Shown here: piece by piece, positions 28,722 to 50,799 of the stretch
Position numbering within the stretch: position 1 is the stretch's first letter
Layout of the letters: each line of letters starts with the position of its first letter
NCBI GenBank assembly: GCA_025060615.1
Contig: JANXBS010000010.1
Location: 1 to 64,000, forward strand
Length of the DNA: 64,000 nucleotides
Direction of reading: 5' to 3'
Origin: Anaerolineae bacterium
Lineage (GTDB): Bacteria; Chloroflexota; Anaerolineae; DUEN01
Translations under genes and position numbers: made by a program
Notes under the pieces: generated by a model
The model's input: the letters and a program-made list of their open reading frames with translations, nothing else
Told to the model about the DNA's origin: nothing
Database searches by the model: none

Positions 28722-28777
28722 GCTCGCCTCCGAATTGTGCAATTTTGAACAATCTGCCGAGCCTTTGACGCTTCCTC

Positions 28778-28820
28778 ATGACTGACATCATAGCTGCGCT
28801 CGAGATCTGCATGGTACAAT
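28778..28820 (+). promoter_or_regulatory. candidate activator site and extended -10 promoter of the bidirectional hydrogenase operon
   Basis: A 14-bp near-palindrome ATGACTGACATCAT (28778-28791) is followed by an extended -10 element TGGTACAAT (28812-28820). No -35 box is visible (AGCTGC at the right place). If transcription starts near 28827, the palindrome is centred at about -42, the class II activator position. A sister site lies at 31515-31528. The same palindrome could also serve the divergent minus operon. Confidence 0.5.
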
Positions 28821-28907
28821 CGTGTTGCTGTGTCTGAGGAAATGTATGGTTCCTTGACCTATCTAGATGCCGATGCGAGAGATCCGATACGTTTGAGGAG
28901 AGCGATT

Positions 28908-29009
28908 GTGAATAAAATAACATTTGGTCCTTTACCTCACCATGACCATGATCATACTCATTCCGGCCCTCAAGGACGGTCTCAAAAGGGGTATGTTTCT
29001 GTCCGATGA
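28908..29009 (+). CDS. histidine-rich small protein (33 residues)
   Basis: A GTG at 28908 lies 7 bases after a GAGGAG site. The frame encodes 33 residues with a PHHDHDHTHSGPQGR core (five His and two Asp in eight positions), then a stop whose TGA overlaps the next start as ATGA. The frame stays open further upstream, so a start at ATG 28842 (55 residues, poorly spaced site) is possible. His/Asp clusters of this type bind nickel or zinc in HypB- and SlyD-like proteins. Position at the head of a [NiFe] hydrogenase operon suggests metal binding or sensing, but this is inference. It may also be a leader peptide. Confidence 0.5.
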   Translation: MNKITFGPLPHHDHDHTHSGPQGRSQKGYVSVR

Positions 29010-29365
29010 TGAGGCTTGAAGAGCTGATCAAAATCATTGATGGCGAAGTGCTCACAAAAGACAACGATCTCTCCAAGGAGATCAAGGGCGGATTTGGGGC
29101 AGACCTGATGAGTGATGTGTTGGCCTCCATCCAACCTAACGCGGTCCTGCTGACTGGCCTGTGTAATCCGCAAGTAGTGCGTACGGCGCAGATGGCAGAT
29201 GTAGCGGCCATCGTCCTAGTACGCGGGAAGAAGCCGCCTCAAGAGACCATCGATCTGGCCAACCAGGAGCGTATCCCGCTTATCTCCACGGCTTGCGGGA
29301 TGTTTGAAGCCTGTGGGCGTCTCCACCGCGCAGGACTGCCCAGCCTGGAAAAGACGGTCACCTGA
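29006..29365 (+). CDS. DRTGG-domain protein (regulatory)
   Basis: A 119-residue protein made of a single DRTGG-type domain: LIKIIDGEVLTKDNDLSKEI, a central GGFGADLMSDVLASIQPNAV strand-helix and a C-terminal VAAIVLVRGKKPP then ERIPLISTACGMFEACG. Such domains occur with CBS pairs and phosphotransacetylases and are thought to bind nucleotides. In clostridial [FeFe] hydrogenase loci a similar protein stands next to an ATPase and a PHP protein. The start overlaps the His-rich peptide stop. The stop shares a base with the next start. Confidence 0.75.
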   Translation: MMRLEELIKIIDGEVLTKDNDLSKEIKGGFGADLMSDVLASIQPNAVLLTGLCNPQVVRTAQMADVAAIVLVRGKKPPQETIDLANQERIPLISTACGMFEACGRLHRAGLPSLEKTVT

Positions 29366-30366
29366 TGGAACAGGGGCTCATGCGTAGCGGACAAAGGATC
29401 ACTGACGAGCTGGCAGGGTATATCACCCGTGTGGAGGAGCTCGCCTACGAGCTGCGCATTAGCGAGGTCATGACCCGTGATGTGAAGACGGTCACTCCAG
29501 ACATGCAGATGGTGCAAGTGTTGGAGCTGTTCCGCAAAGCCCGTATCTCCGGGGCACCCGTCGTCGTTGAGGGCAGGCTGGTCGGGATCATCAGCATTGA
29601 GGATCTGATCCGTTGTCTGCGTGGAGGCGATGTAGCTGCGCCGGCTAGCGATTACATGAGCACCCAGGTGATCACCGTCAAAGCGTTCCATCCAGTAGTG
29701 GAAGCCTTGAAGTTGTTCGCCCAGACCCGCGTAGGCCGGCTTCCCGTCGTGGATGAGAGCGGAGCGCTGGTGGGGATCATCACGAAAGGCGACATCACGC
29801 GCGGGCTACTGAGAGCTTTGCAGTCCGATTACCAGGAAGAAGAAGTCAGACGATACCGCGCCAGCCATCTGTTCGAGGACATCGTCTCGGACCGTACCAG
29901 TTTGATCCTGAGGTACACCATCAAGCCTAGAGATTTCGCCCATGGCGGAGCAGCTTCCAGCCATATCAAGCGCGCCTTGCTCAGGCTGGGAGCCAACCCG
30001 CAAATCGCCCGGCGTTGCGGTATTGCCGCATACGAGGCCGAGATGAACCTAATCATTCACACCACTAACGGTGGCGTGATCCAGGTCGAGATCGAGCCTC
30101 ATCTCATCACCATGAGAGCCGTGGATGATGGACCTGGCATCGAGGATATCGAACTGGCAATGAGGCCTGGCTACTCCACCGCTCCTGAAGAAATCCGTGA
30201 GCTTGGCTTTGGCGCTGGCATGGGACTGACGAACATCCAACGCTGTGTGGATCAAATGGTGCTAGAGTCAACTCCAGGTAAGGGGACTCGGCTGGAGATG
30301 AAGATCTTCCTCCAGCATGAGGAGGCTCTCAAAGATTGTCACTATAACCAGGAGAAGAAAACGTAG
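29365..30366 (+). CDS. CBS-pair protein fused to an RsbW-like ATPase domain
   Basis: A 333-residue soluble protein. Residues about 30-150 form two CBS motifs (VMTRDVKTVTPDMQMVQVLE, and YMSTQVITVKAFHPVVEALK), which usually bind adenylates. Residues about 185-320 form a GHKL ATPase of the anti-sigma/serine-kinase kind, with YEAEMNLIIHTTNGG as N-box, VDDGPGIEDIELAM as G1 box and GFGAGMGLTNIQRCVD as G2 box. No histidine phosphoacceptor domain is present. It probably senses energy charge and passes a signal by phosphorylation or sequestration. The partner is unknown. The ATG shares one base with the previous stop. Confidence 0.85.
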   Translation: MEQGLMRSGQRITDELAGYITRVEELAYELRISEVMTRDVKTVTPDMQMVQVLELFRKARISGAPVVVEGRLVGIISIEDLIRCLRGGDVAAPASDYMSTQVITVKAFHPVVEALKLFAQTRVGRLPVVDESGALVGIITKGDITRGLLRALQSDYQEEEVRRYRASHLFEDIVSDRTSLILRYTIKPRDFAHGGAASSHIKRALLRLGANPQIARRCGIAAYEAEMNLIIHTTNGGVIQVEIEPHLITMRAVDDGPGIEDIELAMRPGYSTAPEEIRELGFGAGMGLTNIQRCVDQMVLESTPGKGTRLEMKIFLQHEEALKDCHYNQEKKT

Positions 30367-30367
30367 C

Positions 30368-30712
30368 ATGACGCTCCAAGAGATTGTGGATCAGCTCAAC
30401 CTGAGACCGCTAACAGCCAGACACGACTTCGACCAGGTGACCCCCAGCAGCGGCTATGCCTCGGACTTGCTGAGCTGTGTCATGGCCGGCGCACGGCGGG
30501 GAGGGCTCTGGGTTACTCTGCAGGCACATGCCAACATCGTGGCGGTAGCAGCGCTGCTAGATCTGAGCGCTGTTATCATCACAGAAGGAGCTATGCCAGA
30601 CCCAGAGACGATCGCTAAGGCAAACGAGGAGGGAGTTATCCTGCTCTCCACCGACAAATCAACGTTTCACATCGTCGGCCGATTGTGGGAATTGGGCTTG
30701 AAAGATCACTGA
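30368..30712 (+). CDS. second DRTGG-domain protein
   Basis: A 114-residue paralogue of the protein two genes upstream: LQEIVDQLNLRPLTARHDFD, then SSGYASDLLSCVMAGARRGG and a C-terminal VILLSTDKSTFHIVGRLWELG. It follows the CBS-ATPase gene by one base. The first ATG in a good position is 30368. Having two single-domain DRTGG proteins flank the CBS-ATPase gene suggests they form a complex. Confidence 0.75.
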   Translation: MTLQEIVDQLNLRPLTARHDFDQVTPSSGYASDLLSCVMAGARRGGLWVTLQAHANIVAVAALLDLSAVIITEGAMPDPETIAKANEEGVILLSTDKSTFHIVGRLWELGLKDH

Positions 30713-30728
30713 TGCCAGGCTGGATTGC

Positions 30729-31496
30729 TTGAAAACGTACCGTGCCGAGCTCCACGTCCACACGGTGCTCTCCCCCTGCGCCGAAATCGAGATGATCCCA
30801 CCGCTTATCGTCCAGAAGGCCCTAGACCTGGGCATTGAGCTCATCGCGATCACCGATCATAATGCCAGCGCGAATGTGCAGGCAGTGCAACGAGCTGCTA
30901 TAGGCACCACATTGACAGTGTTGCCAGGAATGGAATTGCAAACCCGCGAGGAAGTCCATCTATTGTGTCTTTTTGATACCCTGGAGCAGGCTGAGTCATG
31001 GCAGGCCTTTGTAGACGAACATATGCCGAGGCTCGAGAACAACGCTGAATTGTTTGGCGAACAGCTTGTCGTAGATGAAACGGGTGAGTTTGTTCGTCGT
31101 GAGACGCGACTATTGTTGACCTCAGCCACCCTTTCTCTAAAAGAGGCCGTAGCAGGCGTCACACGACTTGGCGGGATCGCGATCCCTGCCCATGTGGACC
31201 GTAAAGCCTTCAGCCTGATTGCCAATTTGGGCTGGATTCCTCCAGATCTCTCCATAGCCGCTGTAGAGATTTCCCGGCATCTGAGCCCCGCTGAAGCCCG
31301 TCAACGGTTTCCACAGCTTGGCAGCTACCCCTTGATCCAAGGAGGCGATGCGCATCGCCTAGGAGAACTGCTGGGCGCCAACATCTTCCGACTAGCCGCT
31401 CCAACGGTAGCAGAGTTGATCTTGGCGTTCCGGAACGAAGATGGACGCTCACTGACCTTCCATTCCGGGGCGCTTGATAATCCCGAAGGGCAATGA
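30729..31496 (+). CDS. PHP-domain metal-dependent phosphoesterase
   Basis: A 255-residue PHP protein. Metal ligands are in AELHVHTVLSPCAE, IAITDHNASAN, GMELQTREEVHLLCLF, IPAHVDRK and QGGDAHRLGELL, so all conserved blocks are intact. PHP domains hydrolyse phosphate esters of nucleotides or peptides, or phosphoproteins. The TTG start at 30729 is chosen because no ATG or GTG is available before the first conserved strand. It is the last of the regulatory genes before the promoter for the structural genes; its substrate may be a signal made by the neighbouring proteins. Confidence 0.85.
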   Translation: MKTYRAELHVHTVLSPCAEIEMIPPLIVQKALDLGIELIAITDHNASANVQAVQRAAIGTTLTVLPGMELQTREEVHLLCLFDTLEQAESWQAFVDEHMPRLENNAELFGEQLVVDETGEFVRRETRLLLTSATLSLKEAVAGVTRLGGIAIPAHVDRKAFSLIANLGWIPPDLSIAAVEISRHLSPAEARQRFPQLGSYPLIQGGDAHRLGELLGANIFRLAAPTVAELILAFRNEDGRSLTFHSGALDNPEGQ

Positions 31497-31514
31497 GTAG
31501 CCCGAAAGTGCAAT

Positions 31515-31556
31515 ATGACATCGGTCATTGGACCCCCTCACAATTAGCGATAATAT
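31515..31556 (+). promoter_or_regulatory. internal promoter with 14-bp operator before the hydrogenase structural genes
   Basis: TTGGAC (31528-31533) and TAATAT (31551-31556) are separated by 17 bases. A perfect inverted repeat ATGACATCGGTCAT (31515-31528) abuts the -35 box and is centred near -41.5. The repeat has the 5-4-5 layout of FNR/CRP-family sites. Just upstream, an imperfect direct repeat (CCCGAAGGGCAAT, CCCGAAAGTGCAAT) spans the PHP stop codon. Confidence 0.65.
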
Positions 31557-31629: not shown

Positions 31630-32148
31630 ATGCTGAAAGTGTTGGAAAACATCCCAGAGACGGACCCGCTCGTCGACCCAGAACAGCGGGCTATCATTGA
31701 TCAGATCCTAGAAGAGAACAAGGATCTGCCGGGTGCGCCGATGGTAGTTCTCAACGAGCTACAAAGCCGCATCGGATACATTTCACCGGCAATGCAAGCA
31801 TACACGGCGGAGAAATTGCGCATCCCGGTGAGCCAGATTCACGGGGTGGTCTCTTTTTACTCGTTCTTCACCACTCAGCCGCGTGGGCGGCATACGGTCA
31901 AGTTCTGCATGGGAACTGCTTGCTACGTGGGGGGCGCGCCGCAGTTGATCGAGAAAGCGCAACAAGTTTTAGGGGTAAAGGTAGGCGAGACCACTCGCGA
32001 TCGAGCGATCACGCTGGAGGTTTGCCGTTGTGTCGGCGCATGTAGTCAAGCGCCGGTAGTGATGGTAGATGAGGAGGTCCATGGTCGCGTAAGACCTAAC
32101 AAACTACCTCAGATTTTGCGCAGATATCAGGAACAGGAGGCAAATTGA
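31630..32148 (+). CDS. NuoE/HndA-like [2Fe-2S] subunit (first copy)
   Basis: A 172-residue thioredoxin-fold ferredoxin. The cluster ligands are in FCMGTACYVGG and CRCVGACSQAP, the C-x4-C and C-x3-C pairs of NuoE/HoxE/HndA. The N-terminal helices (AIIDQILEENKDLPGAPMVV) are family-typical. It would relay electrons next to the flavin subunit HndC/HydB. The ATG at 31630 has GGAG 6 bases upstream. It begins the structural part of the operon behind its own promoter and overlaps the ATPase gene by four bases. Confidence 0.92.
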   Translation: MLKVLENIPETDPLVDPEQRAIIDQILEENKDLPGAPMVVLNELQSRIGYISPAMQAYTAEKLRIPVSQIHGVVSFYSFFTTQPRGRHTVKFCMGTACYVGGAPQLIEKAQQVLGVKVGETTRDRAITLEVCRCVGACSQAPVVMVDEEVHGRVRPNKLPQILRRYQEQEAN

Positions 32149-32717
32149 GAGAATTGGCCTTACATGTGCTAGATATCGCTGAGAACAGCGTAGAGGCTGG
32201 CGCTACCCAAGTCCAGATCACCGTGGAGGAGAACACACGGGATGACCGGCTCAAGATCGTGGTGGAGGACAACGGGCGCGGGATGGATGAGCAGTTGCTT
32301 GCTCGCGTCACCGATCCTTTCGTGACGACGCGAACCACCCGGAAGGTAGGGCTGGGCATCCCTCTCCTAAAAGCGGCCGCGGAAGCTTGCAATGGGAGCC
32401 TGTGGATTACCTCGGCGCCAGGACAAGGGACTCGCTTAGAGGCCGAATTCCAACGTAGCCACATTGACCGGATGCCCCTCGGTGATCTGGCAGGTACCTT
32501 GTTCACGCTGGTCATCGCCTATCCGAACGTGCATTGGATCTTACGATATCGAATCGATCACGCGGAGTTCATTTTTGACGATGAACCCATTAAGAAGGAG
32601 TTGCAGGATATCCCGCTCACTGAGCCATTCGTTTTGGCCTTCATCCGGGAATATCTACAGAGAGGAATCTCGAATGTCCAAGAGGCCCTTGCCTCTCCCG
32701 AGCTCGCTCATACATAA
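32145..32717 (+). CDS. GHKL ATPase-domain protein of the hydrogenase operon
   Basis: A 190-residue protein whose first 105 residues are a histidine-kinase-like ATPase domain: VLDIAENSVEAGA (N-box), VVEDNGRGMDEQLL (G1) and KVGLGIPLLKAAAEACNGS (G2). It lacks a phosphoacceptor histidine domain and any sensor or membrane part. The C-terminal half is unique. The same gene sits between HndA and HndB homologues in clostridial [FeFe] hydrogenase operons, as I recall. GGAGG precedes the TTG start, which overlaps the previous stop. Role unknown, likely regulatory. Confidence 0.85.
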   Translation: MRELALHVLDIAENSVEAGATQVQITVEENTRDDRLKIVVEDNGRGMDEQLLARVTDPFVTTRTTRKVGLGIPLLKAAAEACNGSLWITSAPGQGTRLEAEFQRSHIDRMPLGDLAGTLFTLVIAYPNVHWILRYRIDHAEFIFDDEPIKKELQDIPLTEPFVLAFIREYLQRGISNVQEALASPELAHT

Positions 32718-32743
32718 CAAATCCGATCTGCAGGAGGAAACTC

Positions 32744-33112
32744 ATGCCAGTTGTGAAATCGCTTGAAGATTTAAAACGGCTAAAAGAGGAAGCGCTCGCT
32801 AAACGCATGGCCAGGACAACCACTGGACGCGCGCAGATCACCGTCGCCATGGGCACCTGTGGGATCGCCGCCGGCGCTCGCGATACTATGAAGGCGATCC
32901 TTGAGGTGATCGAGCAGGAGAACCTGACCGGGGTGGTGGTTACGCAGACCGGGTGCATTGGGCTCTGTGAGTGGGAACCCATCGTCCAAGTGGTCGTCGG
33001 CGATGAGCCGAAAGTCACCTACGGCAAGGTCTCACCGGAGCGAGCTAGACAGATCATGCGGGAACATGTGCAAGGCGGACGGGTCGTTTCGGAATTTCTC
33101 GTTCCAGGTTGA
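32744..33112 (+). CDS. HndB-like thioredoxin-fold [2Fe-2S] ferredoxin
   Basis: A 122-residue protein with a basic N-terminal helix followed by a thioredoxin-like ferredoxin domain. Ligands are one Cys in AMGTCGIAAGARD and two in TQTGCIGLCEWEP; the fourth Cys of the usual set is not obvious. The closest described family is HndB of the NADP-reducing hydrogenase, which accompanies HndA, HndC and HndD. AGGAGGAAA precedes the ATG. The gap to the next gene holds a tandem 11-base repeat (33122-33143). Confidence 0.85.
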   Translation: MPVVKSLEDLKRLKEEALAKRMARTTTGRAQITVAMGTCGIAAGARDTMKAILEVIEQENLTGVVVTQTGCIGLCEWEPIVQVVVGDEPKVTYGKVSPERARQIMREHVQGGRVVSEFLVPG

Positions 33113-33165
33113 TGTTTAAACCTTAGATAACACTTAGATAACACAACGGACAAGGGTGTTGAACG

Positions 33166-34947
33166 ATGAAGTATTACCGATCACACGCGTTGGTGTGTGT
33201 AGATCCTGAATGCCTGGCAAAGGGCGCCCATGAAGTCCTGGACGCCTTGCAGGATGAGCTAGTCGCCCAAGGATTGATCGAAGAGGTACAGGTGCTGGAG
33301 ACCTCGCGGATTGGCGGCTGTGCCAATGGGCCTGAGCTCATGGTGTATCCGGAAGGGGTTCACTACGCCGGGCTGACGGTAGATGACATCCCGTACCTGG
33401 TGGAAGAACACTTCCTGAAGGGGCGCATCGTCAAGAAGTTTTTGGCACCGATTCCCAAGCGCGTCGATGAGGAGCTGGGGCCGCCGCAGGCTAAGGAAGT
33501 GCGCGTGGTCCTGCGCAACTGCGGCAAAATTGACCCAGAGAACATCGAAGACTATATCGCTGAAGACGGGTATCTAGCGCTGGCAAAGGTGCTCACCGAG
33601 ATGACGCCCGAACAGGTGATTAATGAAGTGATCAATTCCGGGCTGCGCGGGCGCGGCGGTGCCGGCTTTCCGACCGGCAAAAAATGGCAGCTTGTGCGCC
33701 AAGCCCCCGGTAACCCTAAATATGTGATCTGCAACGCCGATGAAGGCGATCCAGGTGCGTTCATGAACCGGCGGGTTTTGGAGGGTGATCCTCATTCTGT
33801 CCTGGAAGGAATGATCATCGCCGCCTACGCTATCGGCGCCAGTCAGGGATACATCTACTGCCGCGCGGAGTATCCGCTAGCGGTGCGGACGCTCAACATC
33901 GCCATTCAACAAGCAAGGGCCTTTGGCTTTCTGGGGGAGAACATCTTAGGCAGTGGGTTTTCGTTTGACATCGAAGTACGTATGGGAGCCGGCGCGTTTG
34001 TCTGTGGTGAAGAGACCGCTCTAATGGCCTCCATCGAGGGACGGCGTGGTGAACCACGTCCCCGTCCGCCATTCCCAGCAGTCAAAGGGCTGTGGGACAA
34101 GCCCACCAACATTAACAACGTCGAGACATATGCAAATATTCCTCAGATCATCCTGCGCGGGGCGAGCTGGTTCGCCAGCATGGGAACTGAACGCAGCAAA
34201 GGGACCAAAACGTTCGCTATCGCTGGCGATGTGAAACGCACAGGGCTGATCGAGGTGCCATTAGGGATCACGCTGCGTGAGGTCATCTATGATGTAGGCG
34301 GCGGTATCAAAGACGATAAGGCCTTCAAAGCTGTGCAAACCGGTGGTCCGATGGGCGGATGCTTGCCGGCGGAATACCTTGACATGGAGGTGGACTACGA
34401 GTCGCTGACGGCAGCCGGCTCTATTATGGGATCGGGCGGTATGATCGTGATGGATGAGGACACCTGCATGGTGGATATCGCCCGATTCTTCATGGAGTTC
34501 ACCCAGGATGAGAGCTGTGGCAAGTGCGTCCCTTGTCGGGTCGGCACACGGCGCATCTTGGAGATCCTCGAACGCATCTGCGCCGGCCAGGGACGGCATG
34601 GAGACATAGAGGTGTTAGAGATGCTCTGTGAGCAGATCAAAAACACCAGCCTGTGCGGCCTGGGGCAGGGCGCGCCGAATCCGGTTGCCAGCACGCTGAA
34701 ATATTTTCGATCAGAGTACGAGGCACACATTTACGAGAAGAGGTGCCCGGCCAAGGTGTGTCGCGCGCTGATCACATACGAGATCTTGCCCAATGTATGC
34801 ACGGGTTGTACGGTCTGTGCTCGTAACTGTCCCGTCGAAGCGATCACCGGAGCGCGCCGCCAGACTCACGTGATCAACCCAGATATATGCATTCGCTGCG
34901 GCATCTGCATGCAAGTCTGCAATTTTAACGCTGTAGTTGTTCGATGA
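33166..34947 (+). CDS. NuoF/HydB/HndC-like flavoprotein with C-terminal ferredoxin domain
   Basis: A 593-residue NAD(P)H- and FMN-binding subunit. Order: N-terminal thioredoxin-fold domain (about 1-95) with Cys11, Cys16 and Cys52 but Arg48 where a fourth ligand is expected; NuoF core with SGLRGRGGAGFPTGKKW (about 160-175) and ICNADEGDPGAFMNRR; an N3-type [4Fe-4S] cluster with CGKCVPCRVGTRR (about 451) and LCGLGQ (about 496); and a C-terminal double [4Fe-4S] domain (CTGCTVCARNCPVEA, CIRCGICMQVCNF). This domain layout is that of HydB in electron-bifurcating hydrogenases. It needs a partner carrying the catalytic site, which in this operon is HoxYH-like. Confidence 0.93.
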   Translation: MKYYRSHALVCVDPECLAKGAHEVLDALQDELVAQGLIEEVQVLETSRIGGCANGPELMVYPEGVHYAGLTVDDIPYLVEEHFLKGRIVKKFLAPIPKRVDEELGPPQAKEVRVVLRNCGKIDPENIEDYIAEDGYLALAKVLTEMTPEQVINEVINSGLRGRGGAGFPTGKKWQLVRQAPGNPKYVICNADEGDPGAFMNRRVLEGDPHSVLEGMIIAAYAIGASQGYIYCRAEYPLAVRTLNIAIQQARAFGFLGENILGSGFSFDIEVRMGAGAFVCGEETALMASIEGRRGEPRPRPPFPAVKGLWDKPTNINNVETYANIPQIILRGASWFASMGTERSKGTKTFAIAGDVKRTGLIEVPLGITLREVIYDVGGGIKDDKAFKAVQTGGPMGGCLPAEYLDMEVDYESLTAAGSIMGSGGMIVMDEDTCMVDIARFFMEFTQDESCGKCVPCRVGTRRILEILERICAGQGRHGDIEVLEMLCEQIKNTSLCGLGQGAPNPVASTLKYFRSEYEAHIYEKRCPAKVCRALITYEILPNVCTGCTVCARNCPVEAITGARRQTHVINPDICIRCGICMQVCNFNAVVVR

Positions 34948-34968
34948 GCTTAGAGGAGGAACACGAGC

Positions 34969-35442
34969 ATGGATGTTAGAGATGCCCCAGATGTTCTCTC
35001 CGTCGTGCAAACGGCGGTCACCCGACATGGCACTAGTCGGGAGGCACTTATCCCGATCCTATCGGAAGTCAACCAAGCGCTGGGATATCTGCCTACCGCG
35101 GCGCTAACGGAGATCCATCGGCTCTTGAAGGTCCCAGGTAGCCAAATATTCTCAGTAGCAAGCTTCTACCGGATGCTGTCCACGAAGCCTAGAGGTGAGC
35201 ACGTCATTCAGTTCTGTGAAAGCGCCCCTTGTCATGTCGTAGGCGGCCGTGAGGTGTGGCAAGCCCTGCAGGACGCGCTACACCTGAATCCAGGTGAGAC
35301 TAGCGCTGACGGTAAATGGACGCTGTTGACCACTAGTTGCCTGGGGATCTGCGGTGTGGGGCCGGTTGTCGTGATAGACAACGACGTTTATGGCAACGTG
35401 GAGCCCGAACAGATCCCAGAGATCCTGGCTCGTTATGCCTAA
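34969..35442 (+). CDS. NuoE/HoxE-like [2Fe-2S] subunit (second copy)
   Basis: A 157-residue second NuoE homologue, with ligands in FCESAPCHVVGG and TTSCLGICGVGP. The helical N-terminus is shorter than in the copy at 31630. GAGGAGGAACACGAGC precedes the ATG. It is directly followed by the second NuoF homologue, as in hoxE-hoxF or nuoE-nuoF pairs. Confidence 0.92.
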   Translation: MDVRDAPDVLSVVQTAVTRHGTSREALIPILSEVNQALGYLPTAALTEIHRLLKVPGSQIFSVASFYRMLSTKPRGEHVIQFCESAPCHVVGGREVWQALQDALHLNPGETSADGKWTLLTTSCLGICGVGPVVVIDNDVYGNVEPEQIPEILARYA

Positions 35443-35454
35443 AGGGGGAAACAA

Positions 35455-37098
35455 ATGAAAGTAATCCGTTCGATGGTATTGGTCTCCAGTGATCCAGAGA
35501 GCATGGAACGCGGCGCCCAGAAGATCTATCGGCGTTTGCAACAAGAGATCGAGAAATTCGGCCTACAGGATGAAGTCTCGGTAGCCATGGTGGGTGATGT
35601 AGGACGACACGATGCCTTGCCACTGGTGATCGTGTATCCGGAGGCGGTGATTTATGGACCAGTTAAGCCAGACGATGTGCCGTTCCTAGTGGAGGAGCAC
35701 CTGTATAAGGGCCGTATCGCCACTCGGTTGCAAGCCCCAGCCCGAGAGCTTTCGGGGCGCATCGCCTGGCTCTCCGCCCGCCAGGGGACGCTGCCGGCGC
35801 AACAACGCATCGTCTTAGAGCGGACCGGCCAGATCAACCCCGACGACATCGAGGACTATATCGCGCATGATGGATACGTGGCGTTGGGGTTGGCCCTCAC
35901 CACTATGAAACCAGAGGACGTGATCAGCGAGATCACCAAGTCCGGCCTGCGCGGCCGAGGCGGCGCCGGCTTCCCCACTGGGCTGAAGTGGCGTTTCGTG
36001 GCTCAGGCGAAGGGCCACCCCAAATATGTCATCTGCAACGCTGATGAGAGCGAGCCGGGGACGTTCAAAGATCGGCTGATCTTGGAGGGCGATCCCCATA
36101 GCGTCCTAGAGGCGATGGTCATCGCCGGGTATGCCGTCGGCGCTAATGAGGGATACATCTACGTGCGCGGCGAATATGGGCTGGCCCAGGAGCGGCTGGC
36201 TCGGGCGATCGCTCAGGCAAAGGAAATGGGTTTTCTGGGAAGGGATATCTTCGGTAGCGGTTTCGATTTCGAGATCCACATCCACGCCGGCGCCGGCGCC
36301 TACATCTGCGGCGAGGAGACCGCGCTGATCGAGTCCATCGAGGGGAAGCGCGGTGAGCCGCGAGCCCGTCCGCCATACCCGACGACGCACGGCCTGTGGG
36401 GAAAGCCTACCCTCGTGAACAACGTGGAGACGTTGGCGAATGTGCCCCCCATCATTCGAAACGGCGCCTCGTGGTACAAACAATTTGGCACCCCTAGCAG
36501 CCCTGGCACTAAAGTCTATACGATCCTGGGGAATGTCAACGTCACCGGGCTGATCGAGGTCCCCATGGGCATCACCCTGCGCGAGGTGATCGCCATCTAT
36601 GGCAAAGGGATGAAAGGCGGAGCTGCGTTCAAGCTAGCGCAGACGGGCGGTTCCAGCGGCTCGATTATCCCAGCTAGCTTGCAGGATACCCCGATGGACT
36701 TCGATTCGTACAGTCGAGCCGGCGTATCGCTGGGGTCAGGGGCGCTGTTGATCTGCGATGAGAACACGTGCGTAGTAGACCTGGCGCGGGTCTTGCTGAA
36801 CTTCTTCCGGCGCGAGACCTGTGGCAAGTGCACGCCCTGCCGAATCGGCACGGAGCGCGCATACCAGATTCTATCCAGTTTGGCTGAGGGAACCGGTCAA
36901 TTGAGCGATCTGGACGATCTCCAAGTGATCGCTAAGTCCATGGCTGAGCTTTCGAACTGCGGCCTGGGGCAGTCAGCTGCAGTGCCCATCCGAGATATCC
37001 TGAAGCACTTTAGCGCGGAAGTGGAAGCCCACATCCGGCTGAAGGTGTGCCCGGCTGGCGCTTGCCCGATGAGCGGCCGGTTGGCCAGGGCCGCTTAA
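35455..37098 (+). CDS. NuoF/HoxF-like flavoprotein without C-terminal ferredoxin domain
   Basis: A 547-residue paralogue of the gene at 33166. The core is complete: SGLRGRGGAGFPTGLKW, ICNADESEPGTFKDR, and an N3 cluster with CGKCTPCRIGTERA and NCGLGQ. Two parts differ. The N-terminal thioredoxin-like domain is kept (SSDPESMERGAQKIYRR) but has lost every ligand Cys. The C-terminal double ferredoxin domain is missing; the chain ends shortly after KVCPAGACPMSG. It should bind FMN and NAD(H) but not ferredoxin. GGGGAAAC precedes the ATG. Confidence 0.92.
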   Translation: MKVIRSMVLVSSDPESMERGAQKIYRRLQQEIEKFGLQDEVSVAMVGDVGRHDALPLVIVYPEAVIYGPVKPDDVPFLVEEHLYKGRIATRLQAPARELSGRIAWLSARQGTLPAQQRIVLERTGQINPDDIEDYIAHDGYVALGLALTTMKPEDVISEITKSGLRGRGGAGFPTGLKWRFVAQAKGHPKYVICNADESEPGTFKDRLILEGDPHSVLEAMVIAGYAVGANEGYIYVRGEYGLAQERLARAIAQAKEMGFLGRDIFGSGFDFEIHIHAGAGAYICGEETALIESIEGKRGEPRARPPYPTTHGLWGKPTLVNNVETLANVPPIIRNGASWYKQFGTPSSPGTKVYTILGNVNVTGLIEVPMGITLREVIAIYGKGMKGGAAFKLAQTGGSSGSIIPASLQDTPMDFDSYSRAGVSLGSGALLICDENTCVVDLARVLLNFFRRETCGKCTPCRIGTERAYQILSSLAEGTGQLSDLDDLQVIAKSMAELSNCGLGQSAAVPIRDILKHFSAEVEAHIRLKVCPAGACPMSGRLARAA

Positions 37099-37126
37099 CC
37101 ATCACTTGCAACACGTGGAGGATATT

Positions 37127-39130
37127 ATGGTTAGTCTGACAATAGATGGCCGGCAGCTAGAGGTCCCTGAGGGGATAACGGTACTAGAAGCAGCGAAGTT
37201 GGCCGGTATCGAGATTCCAACCCTGTGTTATCATCCGCGATTAACGCCCTATGGTGGTTGTCGTCTCTGTGTAGTAGAAGTGGAGCGGATGCGCACGCTG
37301 CAACCGTCGTGCACCTTGCCGGTGAGCAACGGGATGGTAGTATACACCAACACGCCCAAAGTGCGTGAGGCCCGCAAGTTCATCCTGACGTTGCTCTTCA
37401 GCGAGCGCAATCACTACTGCATGTACTGCCAGATGAGCGGTGGCGACTGCGAGCTGCAAAACGCTGCCTATGGCGAGGGCATGACGCATTGGCCTCTGCC
37501 GCCTAATTGGAATCCATATCCAATAGACGCCTCTCACAAGTACTTTGTGCTGGATCATAATCGATGCATCATATGTCGGCGTTGTGTTCGCGCCTGTGGT
37601 GAGCTAGTAGGCAACTTCACACTGGGCGTGCGGGAGCGTGGTGCAGATGTCATGATCATGGCCGATCTCGATGTGCCCTTGGGCGAGAGCACGTGCATCT
37701 CCTGCGGCACTTGTGTTCAGGTCTGCCCGACAGGCGCTCTGATTGACCGGATGAGCGCATACCGCGGGCGCGAAAAGGATGTCCAGCGGATCAAAAGCAC
37801 GTGCGTTGGCTGCAGCGTGGGGTGTGGGATCGAGCTCATCGTGCGCGATAATCACTTACTTCGCATTGAAGGGGATTGGGATGCCCCAGTCAACGGCGGC
37901 CTCCTATGTGAATTGGGCCGGTTCCGGCCATTGTACGAGGACCGCGAGCGGATTGTGACGCCGCTGGTGCGCATGAATGGAAGGTTGAAGGCGGCAACAT
38001 GGGAAGAAGCCCTTCACCGTATTGCCGCCCAACTGAAGCCACTCGTTGGCAGAAACGGCGACGGCATTGCTGCATTAGCTTCGACACGGCTGCCCGCGGA
38101 GGCGCTCTACTTGTTTAAGCAGCTCTTCGCCGAAAAGCTGGGCAGTGAGATGGTGACCAGCATTGAGGAAGGGCTCCCCACCGCTGTGCCAGGAGCGATA
38201 GCGCAAGCTGCTGGCAGGCCGTTAGAGGGTGGTCTGGAAGCGCTTCAGTCAACAGATTGCGTAGTAGTCATCGGCGCTGATCTGACCGAAAACCACCAGG
38301 TCGCCGGATTTTTCGTCAAGCGCGCCCTTCCCAACGGCATCCGGCTGATCGTAATTGACCCGCACGAAAACGGCTTGCAGCGGCTGGCGCACTACGCGTT
38401 GCGGCCTAAGAAAGGCACTGATCTCGAGTTGCTACTAGGCATCCTAGCTGGCGTTATCAGACTGGGATTGGCCAAGGGAGAGGTGAGCAGTGCTTACGAC
38501 CTTGATCGGCACACTCCTGAGGCGGCCAGCCAAATCACAGGCGTCCCCATTGACCAAATCCTAGCCGTGAGCCAAACGATCGCTACTGCTCAGAAGCCAG
38601 TTTTCGTCTACGGTAAGGGGATCATCGGCGATGGATCCCCGCAGGCGCTGAAGGCATTGCTGGAGCTGGCCCGTCTAGTAGGAGCGCTGGACGAGGAGCG
38701 CTCAACGGTGGTCAGCACCAAAGGGCAAGCCAACAGCCTAGCAGCGTATCTGTATGGGCTCGATAGAACATTTGAGGTAAACGGCCATCAAGCGGTTTAT
38801 TTGGCGCTGGGGGATGACACACCTAGCCAGCGGCTTATCCAGCGTCTGCAAGGAGCGCCGTTCATCGCCGTGCAGGCCAGCTATGTCTCGCCGGTCACAG
38901 CCATGGCAGACGTAGTACTGCCGGTGACCACTTGGGTCGAACAAGAGGGACATTACCTGAACTTAGATGGCCGACTGCAGAAGGCTCGTCGCGGCCTTCA
39001 GCCGCCGGCAGAGGTACGATCCAACGTGGAAGTCTTGGAGGCTATCGCTGCGAACCTGGAGATGACATTGAACTGCAGTTGGAAAGAGGCGTTGAGGGCG
39101 CGAGTGCCCATAGTAGCCATTCGGGAATAA
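37127..39130 (+). CDS. NuoG-like iron-sulfur subunit with molybdopterin-type domain
   Basis: A 667-residue electron-transfer subunit. Order: [2Fe-2S] domain (CYHPRLTPYGGCRLCVVEV); His/Cys-ligated [4Fe-4S] (HYCMYCQMSGGDCELQ); two [4Fe-4S] motifs (CIICRRCVRAC, CISCGTCVQVCPTGA); a further [4Fe-4S] set (CVGCSVGCGIEL and a later LLCELG); then a molybdopterin oxidoreductase-like domain to the end. Soluble hydrogenases usually have the short HoxU (about 240 residues), so this long NuoG form is notable. No [FeFe] H-cluster motifs are present. GGAGG precedes the ATG. It joins the flavin subunits to HoxYH. Confidence 0.93.
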   Translation: MVSLTIDGRQLEVPEGITVLEAAKLAGIEIPTLCYHPRLTPYGGCRLCVVEVERMRTLQPSCTLPVSNGMVVYTNTPKVREARKFILTLLFSERNHYCMYCQMSGGDCELQNAAYGEGMTHWPLPPNWNPYPIDASHKYFVLDHNRCIICRRCVRACGELVGNFTLGVRERGADVMIMADLDVPLGESTCISCGTCVQVCPTGALIDRMSAYRGREKDVQRIKSTCVGCSVGCGIELIVRDNHLLRIEGDWDAPVNGGLLCELGRFRPLYEDRERIVTPLVRMNGRLKAATWEEALHRIAAQLKPLVGRNGDGIAALASTRLPAEALYLFKQLFAEKLGSEMVTSIEEGLPTAVPGAIAQAAGRPLEGGLEALQSTDCVVVIGADLTENHQVAGFFVKRALPNGIRLIVIDPHENGLQRLAHYALRPKKGTDLELLLGILAGVIRLGLAKGEVSSAYDLDRHTPEAASQITGVPIDQILAVSQTIATAQKPVFVYGKGIIGDGSPQALKALLELARLVGALDEERSTVVSTKGQANSLAAYLYGLDRTFEVNGHQAVYLALGDDTPSQRLIQRLQGAPFIAVQASYVSPVTAMADVVLPVTTWVEQEGHYLNLDGRLQKARRGLQPPAEVRSNVEVLEAIAANLEMTLNCSWKEALRARVPIVAIRE

Positions 39131-39149
39131 TTCAGGAAGGAGTGTTGGG

Positions 39150-39692
39150 ATGACAAAGCCAAAGATTGCCACTGACTGGTTAGCAGGATGCTCGGGATGT
39201 CACATGTCATTGCTAGATATTGACGAGCGAATCGTCCAACTGGCGGAGCTGGCCGATATCCGGGCAACCCCTGTCACCGATCTCAAGGAGCCCGATGAGA
39301 GTGGCGTAGATGTAGGGATACTGGAAGGCGCAGTGAACCTAACCACCAACGAAGAGGTCGCCCACCGTATGCGCCGGCGCTGCAAGATCCTGGTAGCGTT
39401 GGGGGATTGCGCCGTGTTCGGCGGTGTATTGACCATGCGCAACTTCCACAAGCTGGAGGATGCCCTACGCCGAGCTTACGTGGAAGCGGAGAGTGTAGAC
39501 GGCGATGGCAAGATTCCTTCTAGCCCGGAGTTGGGCCGGCCGACTCGAGTGCGGGCATTAGATGAGGTCGTGGACGTAGACGTCTACATCCCAGGCTGTC
39601 CGCCTGATCCAGATGTGATTTTTTACGCGCTGAGCGAGCTGTTACAGGGGCGCATCCCAGAGCTTAAAGACGAGAAGCTACACTGGCATTGA
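39150..39692 (+). CDS. hoxY: [NiFe] hydrogenase small subunit, HoxY-like
   Basis: A 180-residue small subunit with a single proximal [4Fe-4S] cluster: ligands in AGCSGCHMSLLD, ALGDCAVFGG and IPGCPPDPDVI. There is no Tat signal and no extra clusters, so it is cytoplasmic and of group 3 type. AGGAAGGAG precedes the ATG. It is followed by the large subunit with a short spacing, the two forming the catalytic pair. Confidence 0.93.
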   Translation: MTKPKIATDWLAGCSGCHMSLLDIDERIVQLAELADIRATPVTDLKEPDESGVDVGILEGAVNLTTNEEVAHRMRRRCKILVALGDCAVFGGVLTMRNFHKLEDALRRAYVEAESVDGDGKIPSSPELGRPTRVRALDEVVDVDVYIPGCPPDPDVIFYALSELLQGRIPELKDEKLHWH

Positions 39693-39703
39693 AGGGGGTA
39701 GGT

Positions 39704-41131
39704 ATGTTCGCACAGAAGATCACGATCGAGCCGGTAACCCGCATCGAAGGGCACGCCAAAGTCACCATTCACCTGGACGAGCAAGGTAAGGTCCGACAAG
39801 CTTTCTTCCATGTCAACGAATTTCGTGGCTTCGAAAAGTTCTGCGAAGGACGCATGTACTTTGAGATGCCCGTGATCACACCCCGCATCTGCGGGATCTG
39901 TCCGGTCAGCCATCATCTAGCTGCGGCCAAGGCTTGTGATGCCTTGACCGGCGCCATACCTCCGCGCCCAGCGCAACTGCTGCGCGAGCTTATGCACATG
40001 GGGCAGATAATCCAGAGCCACGGCATGCACTTCTTCGAGCTGGCCGGCCCCGATCTCTTGTTGGGGTTCGACGCTGATCCGGCCGTGCGCAACGTGGTCG
40101 GCCTCATTCAGGCGAACCCAACGCTGGCGCTCCAGGCGGTCAACCTGCGCAAATATGGGCAGGAGATTATCCGCACCCTGGGCGGGCGGAAAGTGCACCC
40201 GAACTTCGCCGTGCCCGGTGGCGTCAACAAGGCGCTCAAACCAGCTGAGCGAGACGCGATCCTGGCCGGCGCTGACGAGGCCATCGCTACGATCCAGACA
40301 GGCTTGGTCATCATGAAGGAGTGGGCCGAAAAGAATCGGGTAGAGATCGAGCGGTTCGCGGTGTTCCCCAGCGGGTACTTCGGGCTGGTTACGGAAAAGG
40401 GAGGGCTAGAACTCTATGATGGCAAATGCCGGTTGATCAGTGCCGATGGGAAACTGCTCGAGGAGTTTGAGGGGCGTGATTATCTGAACTACATCGCTGA
40501 GCGCGTCGAGGATTGGTCGTATCTGAAGTTCCCCTACTACAAAAAGCTGGGATGGCCGGCCGGTGTCTATCGGGTGGGGCCGCTAGGGCGCTTAAACATC
40601 GCCGAGCGAGTGGATACGCCACTGGCAAGCGAGGAGTTTAGCGCCTTTAAAGCGCTCAATTGTGGAAAGCCAGTTGAGCACACCCTGTACTACCACTACG
40701 CGCGATTGATCGAAGCCCTTTTCGCAGTGGAACGGGTCAAGATGTTGCTAGACGACCCTGACATCCTGAGCACCGACATCTTAAACACGCGTCGCGACTT
40801 TCAGCCGGAAGGGGTAGGCGTTATCGAGGCGCCGCGCGGCACCCTATTCCACCATTACTGGATCAACGAGCACGGCCAACTGACGAAGGTCAACCTGATC
40901 GTCTCCACAGGCCACAACAACTGGGCCATGAGTCAAGCGGTGGACTCGGTGGCTAAGATGTATGTGGACGGAACGAAGTTGACTGAAGGGATGCTGAACC
41001 GCGTTGAGGCAGCCATCCGTGCCTATGATCCATGCCTGTCCTGCTCGACCCACGCTGTGGGACAGATGCCAATGGTGGTAGAGCTTTATGGGCCTGATGG
41101 CACGCGGCTGGATGTGCTGCGACGGGATTAA
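39704..41131 (+). CDS. hoxH: [NiFe] hydrogenase large subunit, HoxH-like
   Basis: The 475-residue catalytic subunit carries [13 protein letters not shown] near the start, the L1 nickel motif [11 protein letters not shown] (Cys63, Cys66) and the L2 motif [10 protein letters not shown] (Cys444, Cys447). After the His of L2 a tail of about 25 residues ([16 protein letters not shown] and more) remains, to be cut by the protease encoded next. The sequence is of the group 3 bidirectional type. AAGGGGGTAGGT precedes the ATG at 39704. It may belong to the HoxEFUYH or the bifurcating HydABCSL branch; only phylogeny can decide. Confidence 0.94.
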
Positions 41132-50343: not shown

Positions 50344-50403
50344 ATTGTAGGTGTACTCACGAGGCCAAGACGGCTTTTGTGCTAATTCTAACAAAGAGAA
50401 GGA

Positions 50404-50799
50404 ATGAATCAAAGCAAAACGCAGCCGACGGAGCGTGTCAACCGCCGGCTGCAAGAGGCAGAGATCATCTGGGTTGCTAGCGTGCGGCCTAACGGGGCAC
50501 CGCATCTGTCGCCGGTGTGGTTTGTGTGGGATGCGGGCTGCTTCTTCATCTGCATTAGCCCTGTCAGCCGCAAGGCACGCAACTTGGCGCAGAACCCTCA
50601 AGTGGCCGTGTCCCTGGAGGATGGCCGCAATGTGGTGATCGCTGAAGGTGTTGCCAGCCCAGCTACGGAGAGTGAGCGGGAGCAAGTGGCCGCTCTCTTT
50701 CTCCACAAGTACGATTGGGACATCCGAATGGATTCGACGTACACGTTGCTGCTGAAGATCACACCTAGAAAGTTTCTGACATGGGGCGATGAAGCTTAA
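50404..50799 (+). CDS. PPOX-class (pyridoxamine 5'-phosphate oxidase-like) flavin protein
   Basis: A 131-residue split-barrel protein: AEIIWVASVRPNGAPHLSPV, then FVWDAGCFFICISPVSRKAR and NPQVAVSLEDGRNVVIAEG. Such small proteins bind FMN or F420 and act as oxidoreductases on various substrates. Members with this motif order are often annotated F420-dependent, but the cofactor is not resolved by sequence. GAGAAGGA precedes the ATG. Confidence 0.85.
   Translation: MNQSKTQPTERVNRRLQEAEIIWVASVRPNGAPHLSPVWFVWDAGCFFICISPVSRKARNLAQNPQVAVSLEDGRNVVIAEGVASPATESEREQVAALFLHKYDWDIRMDSTYTLLLKITPRKFLTWGDEA

Follow-up and report, generated by a model that had tools for sequence, protein, structure and literature searches.

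The DNA analyzed here (64,000 nucleotides in full, hereafter the window) is part of an Anaerolineae genome of 3.86 Mb, G000, and carries two plus-strand operons, one regulatory and one encoding a hydrogenase. By its Pfam matches, the regulatory operon (29006–31496) comprises genes for a DRTGG protein (29006), a CBS-HATPase protein (29365), a second DRTGG protein (30317 or 30368), and a PHP protein (30729), in an order that is the same in most relatives. The HydABCSL-like hydrogenase operon (31630–41131), delineated by Pfam, NCBIfam, and best PDB matches to chains of 7t2r, encodes successively NuoE-like, HATPase, ferredoxin-like, NuoF-like, NuoE-like, NuoF-like, and NuoG-like proteins, followed by the small and large [NiFe] subunits. 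The best PDB matches of the NuoG-like, NuoF-like, and large-subunit proteins are 7t2r chains A, B, and D, and the predicted enzyme resembles the electron-bifurcating [NiFe] hydrogenase HydABCSL. The HydABCSL operon of Acetomicrobium mobile (7t2r) likewise contains extra genes, namely HydD, HydP, and HisK, which are assumed to act in maturation or regulation (PMC8880783). In contrast to that system, the window operon has an additional NuoE/HATPase/NuoF set and is accompanied by a regulatory operon with its own promoter. Upstream, on the opposite strand, lies an Mbh/complex I-like membrane operon.

The first-pass annotation of the window had pointed to two 14-bp palindromes, and both are present in the sequence. 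Operator A, ATGACTGACATCAT (28778–28791, plus strand), is an imperfect 5-4-5 palindrome before the regulatory operon, and operator B, ATGACATCGGTCAT (31515–31528, plus strand), a perfect one before the hydrogenase structural operon. A gap of 23 bp separates operator A from TACAAT (28815–28820, plus strand), the core of an extended −10 element, TGG-TACAAT (28812–28820), while 22 bp separate operator B from the −10 box TAATAT (31551–31556, plus strand), which is supported by the sequence and by relatives. The palindrome centers, 28784.5 and 31521.5, accordingly fall 30.5 and 29.5 bp 5′ of the first −10 base, in agreement with the roughly 30 and 29 bases first estimated, or at about −42.5 and −41.5 when counted from a predicted start set 7 bp past the −10 box. 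The regulatory promoter had been described as lacking a −35 box, and it does. The structural promoter had been read as TTGGAC-17-TAATAT, of which only the −10 half stands: TTGGAC (31528–31533, spacer 17) shares just three of its six bases with TTGACA, was missed by a promoter scan, and is absent from the orthologous promoters of relatives. Both promoters are thus without a proper −35, and from their sequences both look activator-dependent. As inverted repeats spaced 5-4-5 whose half-sites each contain TGA, the palindromes have the form of CRP/FNR-type operators, and their location near −41.5 of predicted starts, at promoters with no good −35, is that of class II sites. The FNR/CRP-like geometry and class II position originally proposed are therefore supported, the distance from site B to its −10 box being kept in relatives as well. 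Operator A was also considered for the divergent Mbh-like operon and rejected, there being no minus-strand TANNNT at the right distance.

A third exact match to the motif, ATGACCATGATCAT (28942–28955), is probably a coding coincidence, as it lies within the HDHDH codons of a histidine-rich small open reading frame. This frame of 33 codons (28908–29009, plus strand) has a GTG start with GAGGAG upstream and encodes VNKITFGPLPHHDHDHTHSGPQGRSQKGYVSVR; its stop codon, TGA, overlaps the ATG with which the first DRTGG gene starts. Among 51 loci, no similar histidine-rich frame was found 5′ of orthologous DRTGG genes, apart from one unrelated-looking match (L158).

For comparison, 61 loci were fetched from Anaerolineae (Chloroflexota), and 60 junctions, each running from PHP to the next gene and excluding that of the window, were counted. 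Every 4-mer palindrome with centers of 0–12 bp was enumerated, with ten shuffles as the control. The top palindrome was the Rex-type GTGA-N6-TCAC, in 21 loci of 6 families, and the second was TGAC-N4-GTCA, in 11 loci of 5 families, compared to a ten-shuffle maximum of 5 loci. Eleven of the 12 near-exact sites (at most one mismatch, window included) have a TANNNT 22–24 bp downstream, which occurs at 3.5% of background positions, giving a binomial p of about 1e-15 that ignores shared ancestry. Loci of named genomes, partly the same records, show equal site-to-TANNNT spacing. The motif is absent from f2 genomes, where PHP and NuoE adjoin, leaving little space in which a promoter could fit. On these sequence comparisons, it is settled that site B is more than chance. 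Comparing the same promoters in relatives, as had been suggested at the outset, bears out the spacing of site B, but site A is clearly kept only in the same-family locus L069, as ATGACAGCTATCAT located 22 bp before TACCAT behind a leader of different length; L104 and L105 have weak matches. Comparison gives strong support to site B and modest support to site A; site B is in all probability a real operator, and site A is probably one too.

Who reads these operators? The search for CRP/FNR homologues that had been called for returned four G000 proteins with cNMP and HTH_Crp domains, one of them with a fitting recognition helix. This candidate, encoded on contig C5 (G000:C5:133900–134598, 233 aa), combines a cNMP-binding-type domain with a Crp-type HTH, and its fold is clear from the sequence. 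Its recognition helix presents Val180, Glu181, and Arg185, the sole such helix among the four, the others reading R-E-Q, L-Y-R, and R-E-S. The published specificity code pairs Arg180 with G3 and Glu181 with A6, and associates a helix that has a non-arginine residue at 180 together with Glu181 and Arg185 with TTGAC-N4-GTCAA-type sites (PMC1274295). Only the C5 candidate fits xTGAC by this code, with the outer base being T in the code and A at the sites here. Its closest orthologues, in G003, G032, and G111 (87, 70, and 51% identity), all occur in genomes with a perfect site B. In G111, a perfect ATGACGTGCGTCAT follows closely on the TATAAT of the orthologue's own gene (locus L169), a position that suggests autorepression. 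Across the class, co-occurrence of regulator and site is only partly clean. G042 and G073 have a C5 orthologue and no site B, and no Val-Glu...Arg helix was found among the sampled homologues of several motif-bearing genomes from distant families; in families f27 and f45, the helices sampled from some motif-bearing genomes were all of the L-Y or R-E type.

These f27 and f45 genomes, and the existence of four CRP/FNR proteins in G000, lend some weight to the alternative that the operators are real and of CRP/FNR type, and are read by another G000 paralogue or paralogues (C2:232 kb, C20:66 kb, C13:79 kb). We regard this as unlikely, given that the three other helices misfit xTGAC by the published code (PMC1274295) and that the palindrome is found at the gene of the C5 orthologue itself in G111. 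The C5 protein and its orthologues are therefore put forward, with moderate confidence, as the putative regulator. The protein contains a single cysteine, short of what an FNR [4Fe-4S] cluster requires, and scores far below the NCBIfam Fnr cut-off. Its score is also under the NCBIfam CRP cut-off, and in the alignment a tyrosine stands in for the arginine through which GlxR binds the phosphate of cAMP. The C5 candidate is thus not expected to rely on FNR-type Fe-S chemistry or to respond to cAMP in the canonical manner; redox state, CO, H2, or NO may be its signal.

Taken together, the palindromes before the hydrogenase and regulatory operons very likely form a genuine switch whose general type is known. 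Our preferred reading, to which we assign a probability of roughly 0.68, is that both serve a single CRP/FNR class II activator, most likely the C5 protein, with Rex probably added in many relatives. The annotation had likewise envisaged one redox-type regulator for both operons, a proposal supported by the spacing, the neighboring genes, and the fitting CRP/FNR helix. From what was computed, namely the sites, their spacing, the retention of site B in relatives, and the functional types of the adjoining genes, we infer binding, the direction of control, and the identity and signal of the regulator as follows. A CRP/FNR dimer at about −42 would recruit RNA polymerase to a promoter without a usable −35, and the hydrogenase would be co-produced with the DRTGG, CBS-HATPase, and PHP module when conditions are reducing or oxygen is low. 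Where a Rex operator overlaps the hydrogenase −10, as in many relatives, NADH-responsive de-repression would probably be added to FNR-like activation. The site suggests how a bifurcating [NiFe] hydrogenase may be tied to the cellular redox state.

A less probable reading still than a paralogous activator is that the palindromes are bound by a repressing CRP/FNR protein or by a dimeric regulator of another family. The site at the G111 regulator gene does sit in a repressing position, 3′ of the −10 box. However, a fixed distance of 22–24 bp to a −10 box without a −35 is the arrangement of a class II activator, and operators of the CRP/FNR protein HcpR are known to have the TGAC-N4-GTCA core.

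Known regulators offer close parallels to the proposed activator and its sites. HcpR1 operators of delta-proteobacteria and two cyanobacteria follow the consensus wyTTGACnnnnGTCAArw (PMC1274295), whose TGAC-N4-GTCA core is identical to that seen here, and HcpR1, like the C5 candidate, combines a non-arginine residue at 180 with Glu181 (PMC1274295). They differ in that the HcpR helix has Ser or Pro at 180 and the C5 candidate Val, and in that the outer base is T for HcpR1 and A at the present sites. HcpR regulators control hcp and frdX, and the genes found here are those of hydrogenase, ferredoxin oxidoreductase, cytochrome, and bd oxidase. FNR class II promoters (TTGAT-N4-ATCAA) are alike in half-site spacing, in position at about −42, and in serving anaerobic energy genes, whereas their outer and inner bases differ from those here, and the C5 candidate, with its one cysteine, is without the N-terminal cluster of FNR. 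The redox repressor Rex enters the comparison through Rex-type palindromes that overlap the −10 in many orthologous promoters, although its protein family and its palindrome are different from those of the 14-bp sites. A literature search, with most subscription papers outside reach, turned up no report of a CRP/FNR operator or regulon in Anaerolineae. Systems of this kind are known; in the literature searched, neither its occurrence in this lineage nor the set of genes it serves appears to have been described.

Within G000 alone, the bare motif looks close to random. ATGAC-N4-RTCAT gives 4 strand-hits in the window against 0.28 expected, for a motif picked after the sequence had been seen. 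It occurs at 17 exact places in G000, mostly within coding sequence. A TANNNT stands 21–24 bp away, in some orientation, at five of the 17, and three of these five resemble promoters, namely A, B, and the site of a CBS gene on contig C14. When the spacing is required as well, G000 alone shows no enrichment (5 versus 5 for the backward control). Exact motif counts within G000 alone do not separate signal from noise. Over nine genomes, motif with spacing occurs 93 times compared to 22 for the backward control, G303 contributing 36 of the 93, many of them TGACA-N2-TGTCACT at 24 bp. Because the motif was chosen post hoc and its G000 places lie mostly in genes, significance rests on the comparative evidence. 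The genome scan that the first-pass annotation had proposed is accordingly divided in its outcome: similar sites do precede anaerobic energy genes, but the bare motif in G000 falls mostly inside genes, so that the random occurrence named there as grounds for rejection partly obtains for the bare motif, with site B rescued by its orthologous promoters. Chance, that is, two unrelated palindromes spotted after the fact, could draw on this intragenic majority and on an imperfect, little conserved site A; yet it is already contradicted for site B by conservation and spacing across five families, as well as by the number of spaced motifs in relatives, which exceeds the control, and we consider it very improbable overall.

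Rex, which was unmentioned in the earlier annotation, is probably a second regulator of the hydrogenase promoter in many relatives. In about a third of the junctions (21/60), a Rex-type palindrome, GTGA-N6-TCAC and often TTGTGA...TCACAA, lies on or beside the hydrogenase −10 (e.g., L101, L104, L125, and L126), and a gene with the Rex N-terminal domain was present in 13/13 genomes tested. Near operator A in the window, the Rex-like sites are weak, with 2–3 mismatches to TTGTGA-N6-TCACAA: tentatively, TTGTGCAATTTTGAACAA (28735–28752; 3 mismatches) between the divergent operons, and TTGTGAATAAAATAACAT (28906–28923; 2 mismatches) in the leader of the regulatory operon. On these patterns, joint control by an FNR-like activator and Rex is likely in relatives and possible in the window. 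That Rex alone controls these promoters, the 14-bp palindromes being incidental, can nearly be dismissed: its palindrome is the most conserved in the junction and its gene is present throughout the genomes tested, but the TGAC palindrome is separately conserved at its own fixed distance and also occurs where the −10 has no good Rex site (L069, L138, and the window). Elsewhere in the window, a Rex-like TTGTGCTAATTCTAACAA (50377–50394; 2 mismatches) lies just before an open reading frame starting at 50404.

Beyond the hydrogenase, sequence comparison supports the view that similar sites precede genes of anaerobic or microaerobic energy metabolism in G000 and its relatives. Since these genes were picked from a list rich in coding hits, single genes are leads, and it is their shared theme that counts as evidence. 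G111 has such sites in front of genes for indolepyruvate:ferredoxin oxidoreductase-like subunits, for multihaem cytochromes, and for a dehydrogenase/CoA-transferase-like pair, the last read from sequence only. One G032 site precedes a CBS protein gene followed by 2-oxoacid:ferredoxin oxidoreductase subunits, and another a response regulator gene with a NuoF-like gene behind it. GTGAC-type sites lie before cytochrome c552 nitrite reductase (NrfA) genes in G326 and G212, the G212 gene being assigned by similarity only. In G000 itself, cydABDC has CTGACCAATGTCAT upstream, with TAATCT 21 bp on, a site whose conservation at cydA promoters is weak (found in G000 and G230 only); a NuoEFG/Nfn-like operon has ATGACCTATGCCAT, 22 bp from TATACT; and a similar site is found upstream of fur-feoAB. 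Other G000 hits were set aside as uninformative, namely a divergent ATGAT-N4-ATCAT beside a LysR-like gene on C26 and those on C31, C27, and C16.

A broader proposal, somewhat short of even odds in our estimation, is that a CRP/FNR subfamily not described so far, with neither Fe-S cysteines nor the cAMP arginine, serves as the general anaerobiosis or redox activator in part of the Anaerolineae and works with Rex at shared promoters. Bifurcating [NiFe] hydrogenase, ferredoxin oxidoreductases, cytochrome bd, and nitrite reductase would then be set by two redox inputs. The site predicts which genes are switched together in poorly cultured anaerobes, and it names one protein to test.

Two further sets of sites deserve mention. 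The G000 CBS gene on contig C14 is preceded by ATGACAAGAATCAT (G000:C14:87542–87555), 22 bp from TAAACT, and its product is similar to the CBS protein of G032; this locus and L252, from two families, encode alike two-CBS-domain proteins behind the same operator and spacing. In G303, more than 20 TGACA-N2-TGTCACT sites are followed by TANNNT 24 bp on, a spacing slightly above that of G000, and from their sequence this set may represent a large regulon of another CRP/FNR paralogue.
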